Part shown: positions 5,059-10,500 of the stretch, piece by piece
Numbering within the stretch: position 1 is the first letter of the stretch
Layout: the number at the start of each line of letters is the position of its first letter
Assembly: GCF_042453785.1 (NCBI RefSeq)
Contig: NC_091676.1
Span: 2,487,501 to 2,551,500, forward strand
Direction of reading: 5' to 3'
Origin: Malus domestica
Lineage: Eukaryota > Streptophyta > Magnoliopsida > Rosales > Rosaceae
DNA: 64,000 bases
Position numbers and translations under genes: made by a program
The notes under the pieces: generated by a model
Database searches by the model: none
What the model was told of the DNA's origin: nothing
What the model saw: only the letters and a program-made list of their open reading frames with translations

Positions 5059-5237
5059 TCATAAATCTTAACAATGACCGGGCTCCTCCCCTCAGTCATA
5101 AATCTTAATAATTAACAGGCTTTAACTTTCAAACAGAAATTAAAAGGATTGGATACTACAGCCTCCTCATGTAAAACGACAAGTAATAAGATTAGAGGGA
5201 AAAAAAAACAAGGTAAGGAACAAGTTATGAACCACGA

Positions 5238-5366
5238 AGGATGTATGGAACATCTAAATCAGAGAACTGGCTCATAGTCACATATAGCATTTCAGCACAC
5301 AACTTTTCTTGTTCGTTTTTGTTGTGTTCTTCCCAATCTCCACATTCCACAACTTCCTGCTACTTC
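5238..5366 (-). ncRNA. miR482/2118-like hairpin 0, eroded (unit I)
   Basis: The plus-strand segment 5327-5348 (TTCTTCCCAATCTCCACATT) is, read on the minus strand, a typical miR482-5p-like arm. The following CCACAACTTCCTGC block matches the equivalent part of the hairpin at 8857-8992. The partner arm around 5238-5270 is only partly complementary, so this looks like a decayed member. It occupies the third position in unit I, matching the 8.9-kb hairpin in unit II. Confidence 0.35.
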
Positions 5367-5447
5367 TACCTTCCCATTCTATTCCTTTCTCTATTTTATT
5401 TCCCCTCACAACTATACACCTAATTTTTCGAGGGAACAAACTAAGCA

Positions 5448-5610
5448 GGGAAAGTAAGGGAAAGAGACCAAAAGACATGGAATCATTGGCCTTGGTGGTT
5501 TTAGGGAGAGAAGAAAAACCTCCCATCATATCAGATATATGAAGTTTTAAGGTTTTCTCTTCTTCCTAACCCACTAAAGCCAATAATTCCATGTTATTTC
5601 TCTCGTTCCG
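5448..5610 (-). ncRNA. miR482/2118-like hairpin 1 (unit I)
   Basis: The arms 5448-5513 and 5553-5610 are complementary. On the minus strand the 5' arm reads ATTGGCTTTAGTGGGTTAGG.. and the 3' arm TCTCTCCCTAAAACCACCAA.., with about 40 nt between. The lower stem shares the block found in the other hairpins of this cluster (CATGGAAT..ATTGG against CCAAT..ATTCCATG). A miR482-like 22-mer would lie on the 3' arm at about 5488-5510 on the minus strand. The family assignment is by pattern only. Confidence 0.5.
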
Positions 5611-5670
5611 TCCTACAGTCCTACTGCTTTCTCTCTATTTTATTACAAACCTTTTTTCTATGCAGGAAAA

Positions 5671-5820
5671 GTTAGGGAAGGAGATGAAAGGGCATGGAAT
5701 CGTTGGCTTGAGTGGTTTTAAGAAGAGAAAATACTCCACTTTATGATTTTCATATTTGTGGATTTTTCTTCTTCCAAATCCACTCAAACCAATAACTACA
5801 AGTCTCTCCTCTTTTTCCCC
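5671..5820 (-). ncRNA. miR482/2118-like hairpin 2 (unit I, promoter-proximal)
   Basis: Arms 5671-5730 and 5765-5820 form a long imperfect stem including the basal pairing TAGGGAAGGAGA with TCTCTCCTCTTTTTCCCC. The miR482-like strand would be about 5705-5726 (minus, TCTTCTTAAAACCACTCAAG). It starts about 45 nt downstream of a minus-strand TATA box at 5864-5870. The equivalent promoter-proximal member of the duplicated unit is the hairpin at 9270-9440. Confidence 0.55.
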
Positions 5821-5860
5821 CTCCTTTCTATTTTATTCTCTCCAGAAGGAGAAGATGGGA

Positions 5861-5870
5861 TGTGTATATA
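5861..5870 (-). promoter_or_regulatory. TATA box for hairpin unit I
   Basis: Read on the minus strand this is CTATATACACATCCCATCTT. It lies 45-60 bp upstream of the first hairpin, and the surrounding 100 bp is conserved in the same position at 9480-9580 beside unit II. Shared promoter-like sequence argues that both units are read on the minus strand. Confidence 0.5.
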
Positions 5871-5959
5871 GTGGAAGAGGGAGAGATCAAAGTACAAATG
5901 GTGGGTGAGACTTCTAGTTCCTGAATTCAAAAGCATTGAATTTGAACGCATGCAGCTGG

Positions 5960-8856: not shown

Positions 8857-8992
8857 TAGGGAAAGAGATGAACAGTAGGAAATCGTTGAAATGAGCGGTA
8901 TTGGAAAGAACTTTTCTTTTTCTTTTTCAAAGATTGTGTTCTTTCCACTCCGCTCATTTCGACAACTTCCTGCCACTCCTCCCTTTCCCCTT
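8857..8992 (-). ncRNA. miR482/2118-like hairpin 3 (unit II)
   Basis: Arms 8857-8912 and 8938-8992 pair almost perfectly around a 25-nt loop. On the minus strand the 3' arm at 8888-8909 begins TCTTTCCAATACCGCTCATT. This is close to the 22-nt miR482 consensus (TCTTTCCxAxxCCxCCCATT as I remember it). The 5' arm at 8940-8963 reads GAAATGAGCGGAGTGGAAAG, the expected star strand. This is the best-paired member of the cluster. The usual role of miR482/2118 is cutting NBS-LRR resistance-gene mRNAs at the P-loop and triggering phased siRNAs; target use here is inference. Confidence 0.65.
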
Positions 8993-9073
8993 ACTCCTTT
9001 GATCACCATTTTATCTCCCCCCACAACTAGAAATGCACCTCTTCCTCTGATGGAACAAGCTAAGTAGGAAAAG

Positions 9074-9227
9074 CTAGGAAAAGAGACGAAAAGGTAGGGA
9101 ATCATTGGAATGAGGGGTTTTGGGGAGAGAAAAAAACACCACTTTATGAATTTATGTGAGTTATTTTTTTTCTTTCTTCCCAATCCGCTCATTCCACTAA
9201 CTCCATGCCTCTCCTCTCTTTCCCCCT
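9074..9227 (-). ncRNA. miR482/2118-like hairpin 4 (unit II)
   Basis: Arms 9074-9130 and 9171-9227 form a long stem with a 40-nt AT-rich loop. Minus-strand 3' arm at 9107-9129 begins TCTCTCCCCAAAACCCCTCA; the 5' arm near 9174-9196 contains GGAATGAGCGGATTGGGAAG, a canonical miR482-5p pattern. The basal stem (CTAGGAAAAGAGACGAAAAG with CCTCTCCTCTCTTTCCCCC) is shared with the sister hairpins. Confidence 0.65.
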
Positions 9228-9269
9228 TAATCCTTTATGTTTTAATTTCCTTAGCGACTTAAATTAAAC

Positions 9270-9440
9270 AGGAAACGGTAGGGAAAGAGTAAAAAGGCAT
9301 GGAATCATGGGTGTAAGTGGTTCCGAAAGAATAATCTCCACTTTCTGATTTAATTTTTTTAAATAGTTGTGGGTTTTTTTTTCTTTATTTCCGATCCACT
9401 TACACCAATAACTCCATGCCACTCCTCTCCTTCCCCCTTC
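9270..9440 (-). ncRNA. miR482/2118-like hairpin 5 (unit II, promoter-proximal)
   Basis: Arms 9270-9332 and 9379-9440 pair across GGCATGGAATCATGGGTGTA and its partner TACACCAATAACTCCATGCC. The 3' arm candidate on the minus strand is about 9309-9331 (TTCTTTCGGAACCACTTACA). It lies about 60 nt downstream of the minus-strand TATA at 9499-9506 and corresponds to hairpin 2 of unit I. The variable middle with conserved base is what all cluster members show. Confidence 0.6.
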
Positions 9441-9498
9441 CCCTTTTTATTTGATTTTCCATAGCTCACATAGAAGAAGAAGAAGATGGTGTGTTTGT

Positions 9499-9506
9499 AT
9501 ATATAA
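9499..9506 (-). promoter_or_regulatory. TATA box for hairpin unit II
   Basis: Minus strand: CCCATTATATATACAAACAC, 60 bp upstream of hairpin 5. The neighbouring CTCTCCCTCTCCC tract and the AAAAGCCTCACCAACC block recur beside unit I at 5870-5920. Confidence 0.5.
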
Positions 9507-9619
9507 TGGGAGAGGGAGAGGATAAAAGTACAGGGGTTGGTGAGGCTTTTAGTTTCGGAATTCGAACGACTTGAAACACGCATTGATTGGAACTTGAATG
9601 CATTCAGCTGGCGTGCTGG

Positions 9620-10500
9620 CGTGCTTGCATGGACGACTGGCTGTGTTGTATGGGCTTCACATTACATTGGGCTTGTTTATTTTGGGCCTTGAGTTTACAA
9701 TTTAATCATAGCCCAAATTTGGAACGAAACTGAACCAAGGTAGACTAGAAGACGTGTTCAAAGCTCAAATCCACCTTGACCTAAAAGTCCTCCAACTCCT
9801 TCTCTATCAAGTCTCTAAAGTTAGGTCTGTGTTGTTGGTCACAGGCACAACTCATCTATTAGTATGTCTTACCATATATCATATCATCGCACAAGGGATT
9901 TGAAAGCACCATTTCTTTTCGTATTCCATAAAATCCTATATGTGCTAGTGAACACTCTGTTTTTTGTCTTTGTTTTTATTTTAGTAAATAAAAATTTTTG
10001 TGTTTCATTTTGTTTATTTATTTATTTTAAATACAGTTGGAATGAATATCTTTTATCTTTCAAATCACGGTTAGTGCAAATACAATGATTGCGAGTTGAA
10101 ATTTTGTAAAGGTGCATTTTTTTTCATCACCTTCAAGGGATGGTAATGATCATACTTTATTTTTCACCATTTAATGAGTTTAAATTTCGAGATATGTGTA
10201 ATGGATATACACAAATATTAAATTATTAAGGTCTCAATCTTTCAGATACAACGGATTTAGAATTAATCCACATATCTAATAAAAAATAAATGTTAGAAAA
10301 TATTAAACAAGGCAAAAAATGGGCAAATCAAACTATTAATGAAAAATAGCACTGCAAAAAACAAATATTAAAGTAGGAAGATGATTAGTTAAGAAGAAAA
10401 TGAGATCACGTCACAGATAAGTTCTGCACTGTGTGGACCCATTTTGGGTGCAGAAGATCCTGTCGGCTCTCTCAAAAGTTCAAGGCAAGAGTAGAAGCTA
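9620..10500. other. AT-rich intergenic DNA, no gene seen
   Basis: Only short ORFs without domains. No repeat structure stands out. Confidence 0.5.

Follow-up and report, generated by a model that had tools for sequence, protein, structure and literature searches.

MIRNA genes of the miR2118 type clustered on one strand in apple, multiplied by segmental duplication and complementary to P-loop-like codons

We analyzed 64,000 nucleotides of Malus domestica DNA (assembly GCF_042453785.1, contig NC_091676.1, positions 2,487,501 to 2,551,500; hereafter the window) and find that its 5.2-12.4 kb region holds a genuine cluster of MIRNA genes of the miR2118 type, which is expressed and has grown by segmental duplication. 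The miR482/2118 family usually keeps immune-receptor genes in check. On our reading, to which as a whole we give a probability of about 0.85, the window, from apple or a very close relative, carries on its minus strand a miR2118-type cluster with complementarity to P-loop-like codons of nucleotide-binding leucine-rich repeat (NLR) genes, made up of a canonical hairpin (C), a unit II of three intact hairpins, a unit I of two intact hairpins and a truncated one, and one or two decayed copies in between. An initial annotation of the window had proposed a minus-strand miR482/2118-type cluster that arose by segmental duplication and diverged in its mature regions, and this proposal is upheld by published 21-22-nt RNAs in five of the six intact hairpins and by an Rfam MIR2118_2 match next door, in hairpin C. 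The latter had been overlooked, as had a decayed copy (S) and a doubtful remnant at 10747-10889. The features are listed below, where z compares the fold of each hairpin with 200 dinucleotide shuffles and R1 is a covariance model built from the six good hairpins.

12428-12434, minus strand: TATA-like box TATAAAA upstream of hairpin C, placed by motif position
12246-12352, minus strand: hairpin C, canonical MIR2118 precursor (RF04185), with the miRNA at 12262-12283 and the star at 12316-12334; apple miRC3 and its star match exactly
10747-10889, minus strand: doubtful remnant, 20 bits and E 0.004 with the model of the six good hairpins
10502-10645, minus strand: hairpin S, a decayed copy related to II-1; 52.6 bits with R1, and 41.2 bits with RF01911 at 10508-10642
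9496-9575, minus strand: unit II upstream region with TATA-like box TATATAT at 9499-9505; homologous to 5861-5940 and within the unit I/II alignment
9266-9445, minus strand: hairpin II-3, z = -8.1; apple miRC25
9062-9232, minus strand: hairpin II-2, z = -6.3; apple miRC26
8845-8998, minus strand: hairpin II-1, z = -9.6, with a predicted 22-nt miRNA at 8886-8907 and a predicted 21-nt star at 8940-8960; RF01911 64.2 bits, E 6e-11
5861-5940, minus strand: unit I upstream region with TATA-like box TATATA at 5865-5870; 73% identical to 9496-9575 and within the unit I/II alignment
5660-5828, minus strand: hairpin I-3, the first after the unit I TATA box, z = -6.8; pear miRn15 duplex
5445-5622, minus strand: hairpin I-2, z = -9.9; pear miRn9 and its star
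5301-5375, minus strand: I-1, truncated to its 5′ arm (a hairpin had been claimed at 5238-5366), homologous to II-1, z = -0.9

Expression of the cluster is evident from small RNAs already reported for apple and pear. Among eight published arms, seven match the window exactly and one has a single mismatch; as a control, one of 44 other novel miRNAs, drawn from excerpts of the two source tables and not from all of their rows, matches the window within two mismatches. The 22-mer of apple miRC3 and its star are exact in hairpin C, and the same 22-mer has been named miR2118a (PMC5328274). Apple miRC26 (22 nt, minus 9105-9126) and miRC25 (21 nt, minus 9308-9328), neither with a reported star, are exact in II-2 and II-3, respectively. 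On the minus strand of unit I, both pear miRn9 (5486-5507) and its star (5561-5581) are exact in I-2, and I-3 holds the miRn15 duplex, with an exact 3′ arm (5703-5724) and a 5′ arm (5770-5790) that carries the one mismatch. The three apple miRNAs were mapped to the plus strand of contig MDC017130.228, at 6,809, 9,764 and 9,967, with one locus listed per miRNA (PMC3446319), and the spacing of the 5′ ends of miRC3, miRC25 and miRC26 is 2955 and 202 nt in the window versus 2955 and 203 nt in that contig. Given the exact matches and near-identical spacing, it is most likely that the window represents this apple locus or its counterpart in a very close relative. Both pear miRNAs lie on scaffold2.0 (PMC4791883), and their four arms are identical to I-2 and I-3 at 85 of 86 bases; such close agreement with pear suggests that unit I predates the divergence of apple and pear.

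Published reads further fix the duplex positions of three hairpins. Using only the window's fold, we predicted the star that would pair with each published miRNA in a duplex with 2-nt 3′ overhangs. The prediction equals the published star in I-2, occupies in I-3 the same position as the published 5′-arm RNA with its one mismatch to the window, and in C spans 21 bases, the first 19 of which are the published star; in all three hairpins with published stars the 5′-arm RNA starts at the predicted base, the star of C being 2 nt shorter. These data bear on whether the hairpins could instead be a family of fold-back transposons (miniature inverted-repeat transposable elements, MITEs) that make 24-nt small interfering RNAs (siRNAs) and are merely MIRNA-like. 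Several repeated hairpins do lie close together here, and hairpins of comparable energy elsewhere in the window may represent MITEs; however, the published 21-22-nt reads, three of them accompanied by stars at the expected overhang positions, the Rfam match of hairpin C, the covariation in the stems and the confinement of the copies to one part of the window, with the model favoring the minus strand in all, make a transposon family highly improbable.

Folding and homology searches delimit the MIRNA cluster. Six of the eight candidate hairpins (I-2, I-3, II-1, II-2, II-3 and C) fold on the minus strand below all 200 of their shuffles, S being weak and I-1 failing. Hairpin C is the only one of the eight to reach an Rfam gathering score, and its match to MIR2118_2 (RF04185; 121 bits, one bit above the gathering score of 120) is the only one at that level in the whole 64 kb; in a permissive scan, RF01911 matches the minus strands of I-2, I-3, II-1, II-2 and II-3 with E values from 1.9e-5 to 6e-11. 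With R1, which its six source hairpins match by construction, no place in the 64 kb has E < 1 besides these members, S, I-1 and 10747-10889, and all of these matches fall within one 7-kb stretch (about 5.2-12.4 kb), with the minus strand favored in every copy. The minus strand had been put forward as the transcribed one, in agreement with the position of all eight published arms and with the lower minus-strand energy of all five good hairpins of units I and II. Plus-strand transcription was rejected, since the same eight arms lie on the opposite strand and the plus strand folds worse in seven of the eight candidates, S being the exception.

The arm that the initial annotation had preferred, at minus 8888-8909, is indeed present in hairpin II-1, with an inner 22-mer at 8886-8907 and the geometry of a 22/21 duplex; nevertheless, a search of main texts turned up published reads for every intact hairpin except II-1. 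The stars predicted in II-1 and II-2, and a 20-mer from the 10777-10798 site, likewise had no match in a literature search.

Units I and II are duplicates of each other. Their minus-strand alignment is identical at 491 of 696 columns (score 329; best of 200 shuffles 31) and starts ~70 bases ahead of the TATA-like boxes and continues to the loop of the last hairpin, the common order on the minus strand being TATA region, hairpin 3, hairpin 2 and hairpin 1. The alignment bears out the earlier view that the inter-hairpin sequence and the minus-strand TATA region were duplicated as well. Of the six hairpins originally assigned to the units, I-2, I-3, II-1, II-2 and II-3 hold, whereas I-1 does not: its 5′ arm aligns with II-1 at a score of 95 (maximum of 100 shuffles 23), whereas the region expected to contain its 3′ arm scores 16, under the maximum of 29 from 200 shuffles. 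I-1 folds like a shuffled sequence because only its 5′ arm remains, and it matches the six-hairpin covariance model weakly (21.8 bits). We therefore reject it as a working precursor and consider unit II complete and unit I to consist of two working hairpins and a truncated one. Just past the truncated end of unit I lie two more fold-backs, at 4906-5036 and 4247-4363, with arms of 56 and 45 nt.

Within a unit, the hairpins lie on one strand and 33-69 nt apart, and RNA polymerase II probably transcribes each unit into a single RNA of ~0.6 kb that starts below the unit's own TATA box. The boxes are found 37 (unit I), 54 (unit II) and 53 (C) bases upstream of the hairpin base. The motif alone is common, with 12 minus-strand matches to TATAWA in the 5.0-12.8 kb interval, and the promoter argument therefore rests on position and, for units I and II, on homology. 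A common promoter origin of C and the two units is not clearly supported: the upstream alignments score 24 and 23, values reached by 2 and 7 of 200 shuffles, and the aligned stretch is mostly hairpin base.

Two further copies were considered between unit II and hairpin C. Hairpin S aligns locally with II-1 (score 51, versus at most 24 in 100 shuffles), contains a stop codon within its P-loop reading and is the sole candidate that folds better on the plus strand (z = -6.2, versus -2.9 on the minus strand). The remnant at 10747-10889 shows no folding advantage over shuffles (z = 0.94 on the minus strand and 0.06 on the plus strand) and no significant alignment with the other cluster copies; as a further gene it is supported by neither fold nor alignment. 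At 10779-10799 on the plus strand lies the complement of a miR482-like 22-mer, which reads GMEGVGK and is without a convincing hairpin.

The connection to NLR genes comes from the reading frame of the miRNA complements. In all six of them (five published, one predicted) a P-loop-like frame is found at offset 2, with the readings GLSGIG, GVSGSE, GMRGFG, GLGGFR, GLSGFK and EMSGIG, where the likeness, judged by codon reading and pattern, is partial for GVSGSE, GLGGFR, GLSGFK and EMSGIG. The complements of peach miRC3 and miRC5 also read at offset 2, a frame referred to as the miR2118 register, and that of the apple miR482-like miRC5* reads at offset 0. With patterns written after the arms had been seen, the strict form G[MLFVI][GSA]G[ILVF]G[KR] has four matches in the six frames of the 64 kb and none in 30 mononucleotide shuffles, the four being the stars of I-2 and I-3, the predicted star of II-2 and the miRNA complement of C. 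The general form GxxGxG[KR] has six matches, namely the same four, the 10779-10799 site and one in a copia element. Target sites for the miRNAs with a score of 5 or less in the window are solely the cluster's own arms. Pfam detected no NB-ARC domain in 40 of the window's 46 stop-to-stop open reading frames of at least 110 amino acids, a scan outside which lie the other six frames and shorter exons, and viral contigs scanned for a miR2118 site gave no match.

Variation among the copies follows the codons of this frame. Over six related sequences, and in two arms that are not independent of each other, variation at codon positions 1, 2 and 3 amounts to 0.76, 0.45 and 1.20 bits in the miRNA complements (third over second, permutation p 0.006) and to 0.46, 0.53 and 1.00 bits in the stars, where the first position is lowest and the excess of third over second is weaker (p 0.08); a lower-stem control with five copies, C left out, has no codon-position pattern. 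Pairing is also retained. In the six hairpins, with the structure derived from the same alignment as was tested, 12 of 46 pairs carry a pair-keeping change on both sides; shuffles give 8.3, and 17 of 500 reach the observed count. Counted as cells, the covariation reaches 25, whereas shuffles give 10.5 (none of 500 reaches 25) and a shift of the partner by 1-3 columns leaves 2-7. Eight of the 12 covarying pairs lie within the miRNA/star region (alignment columns 45 onwards). Between I-2 and I-3, moreover, the miRNA (77%) and star (81%) are among the best-kept parts. With miRNA sites that vary most at third codon positions and stems that remain paired, the copies may serve to match different variants of the P-loop.

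A number of observations weigh against this picture of a minus-strand, NLR-directed cluster. All hairpins of units I and II score under the Rfam gathering thresholds (41.6-64.2 bits on the minus strand versus 85 for RF01911), and in three of them the RF01911 score is higher on the plus than on the minus strand (I-2, 50.9 and 41.6; II-2, 47.5 and 42.9; II-3, 51.5 and 50.5 bits). The published 3′-arm RNAs are 22 nt long in four of five hairpins, but miRC25 has 21 nt, and II-3, in which its predicted partner has 25 nt, is less regular. The pear authors, in addition, name the 5′ arm of I-3 as the miRNA and the 3′-arm RNA as the star (PMC4791883). In apple, miRC25 and miRC26 are rare, with 24 and 15 normalized reads and no star, and RNA blots for miRC3 in fruit gave no signal or scarcely any despite abundant fruit reads (PMC3446319). 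The full Walker motif GxxGxGK[ST] has no match in the window, and no arm reads as it. Nor, when the two units are compared, was the miRNA site found to be better conserved than its flanks (64-73% versus 60-80%), the miRNA and lower 3′ stem being identical at 73% and 80% in I-2/II-2 and at 64% and 75% in I-3/II-3. As for targets, the degradome assigns miRC3 to MDP0000485327, an 'unknown protein' (category 0), and miRC25 to cytochrome P450 86B1 (category 2) (PMC3446319), miRn9 is assigned to heavy metal ATPase 2 (category 2) (PMC4791883), and a further study in apple gives NADP-malic enzyme 3 as a target of miR2118. Md-miRln20, reported to act on a 5′ UTR, was weighed as a candidate product of the cluster. 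With printed targets not annotated as NLRs, cleavage of NLR transcripts and the production of phased siRNAs (phasiRNAs) by cluster members are what we infer, as is a single polycistronic transcript per unit.

Several of these points would fit an alternative in which the hairpins of units I and II, once miR2118 genes, continue to yield miRNAs but have ceased to target NLRs, now hitting unrelated genes (for example, CYP86B1 or a heavy-metal ATPase) or nothing and persisting by drift. The printed targets, the scarcity of miRC25 and miRC26 and the equal conservation of miRNA site and flanks between the units all agree with such a loss of aim, as do the disappearance of key P-loop residues from several copies (for example, GVSGSE and GLGGFR) and the decay that has already overtaken I-1 and S. 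Drift, however, sits poorly with compensatory changes that keep the stems paired, with the codon pattern in the variation of the miRNA complements and with the near-identity of the unit I duplexes in pear, and we consider this alternative unlikely, albeit one to be taken seriously.

The nearest support for NLR targeting by the apple cluster may come, by analogy, from peach, where miRC3 and miRC5 are encoded 2.5 kb from each other on the same strand of Scaffold_1 and have a common NBS-LRR degradome target of category 2 (PMC3542160). A target of apple miR2118, MDP0000184039, has been printed as 'TIP-NBS-LRR' (PMC5447065). More generally, 22-nt RNAs of the miR482/2118 family cut NLR transcripts and start 21-nt phased siRNAs (PMC8453155, PMC8368212), and in apple roots levels of the family drop once Pythium infects, and phased siRNAs arise from a locus that carries a miR482c site (PMC8453155). 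We propose a model in which each unit would be transcribed by RNA polymerase II from its own TATA box into an RNA of ~0.6 kb and DCL1 would cut each stem to release a duplex of 22-nt miRNA and 21-nt star. The miRNAs would then be loaded into AGO1, as elsewhere in the family, and direct the cutting of NLR or NLR-derived transcripts at P-loop codons, their 22-nt length leading to 21-nt phased siRNAs that would damp the NLR repertoire.

Apple expression, on the other hand, is biased toward the flower, which leaves room for a reproductive role. Reads of miRC25 and miRC26 come solely from flower, miRC3 occurs in all four tissues with 1,567 of its 2,751 reads in flower (PMC3446319), and the pear reads derive from winter flower buds (PMC4791883). 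The cluster could accordingly be a flower-biased miR2118 set that starts pre-meiotic 21-nt phasiRNAs from non-coding loci in pome fruits, much as miR2118/482 triggers reproductive 21-nt phasiRNAs in columbine and flax, where some columbine precursors are polycistronic (PMC8368212). In strawberry and rose the trigger is miR11308, whose distribution fits a Rosoideae origin, but miR2118/482 in these two plants acts mostly on disease-resistance (NLR) genes (PMC8368212). The reads from the apple cluster are also few and miRC3 is found in other apple tissues, so that we regard a reproductive trigger as rather improbable and retain NLR-directed silencing as the preferred function.

Compared with known systems, the cluster resembles the miR482/2118 superfamily (RF04185/RF01911) in that C passes RF04185, the other hairpins match RF01911 at low E values and the 3′-arm 21-22-mers share the P-loop register of peach miRC3 and miRC5, and differs from it in that the hairpins of units I and II stay under gathering scores and several lack canonical P-loop residues. 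Like the Solanum miR482a/b/d/g cluster (four genes in 8.2 kb on chromosome 6; PMC4700956), it consists of tandem duplicates within a few kilobases, but apple has two homologous multi-hairpin units with a duplicated upstream region, along with a canonical MIR2118. The Populus MIR482-MIR1448 polycistron (PMC3475693) similarly contains a tandem copy that diverged from MIR482 with compensatory stem changes; one transcript is reported there, whereas the apple units hold up to three hairpins and we infer a single transcript for each. Apple miRC3, miRC25 and miRC26 (PMC3446319) and pear miRn9 and miRn15 (PMC4791883) are products of C, II-3, II-2, I-2 and I-3, respectively, yet the source papers list them as separate apple-specific or pear-specific miRNAs. 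The main text of the apple paper (PMC3446319) does not contain 'miR482', 'miR2118', 'polycistron' or 'tandem' and uses 'cluster' only for MYBs, and the text of the pear paper (PMC4791883) has miRn9 and miRn15 in tables only and contains neither 'polycistron' nor 'tandem'. In a search of literature listings and of the main texts of the two source papers, no paper was found that assigns miRC25, miRC26, miRn9 or miRn15 to the family or describes the cluster, and the family assignment of these four miRNAs thus appears to be new.

Elsewhere in the window, a Copia-type retrotransposon at 16258-21533 has an open frame of 1371 amino acids (16780-20895) and two 590-base end repeats; as these are 100% identical, it is probably a very young insertion. 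A direct repeat of 1,586 bases at 59193-60778 and 62322-63907 (99.9% identical), each copy of which contains an inner repeat of ~421 bases (87%), resembles a pair of long terminal repeats from a young element. Hairpins at 38921-39080, 40841-41000 and 54601-54760 are about as stable as the MIRNA ones, have sub-threshold Rfam matches (MIR2630/MIR8675, MIR2646 and MIR8562, respectively) and are possibly MITEs. Pear 'miRn11' has two matches in a hairpin region, at 40763-40784 and 40890-40911 on the minus strand with two mismatches each, and this published miRNA may be MITE-derived. Exons resembling two amino acid permease copies (34110-38833, minus strand) and two PAP2-type phosphatase copies (51188-51565 and 55749-56087, minus strand) look like other tandem gene duplications.

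Taken together, four apple and pear miRNAs considered species-specific, and a hairpin without a published read, can be placed in a single duplicated miR2118 locus of known strand, register and likely promoters. The locus offers a compact test of how such clusters diversify, with third-position variation in P-loop-like codons and stems that are kept paired, and it provides apple researchers with a defined set of small RNAs with which the control of immune receptors or of flower phasiRNAs can be tested.

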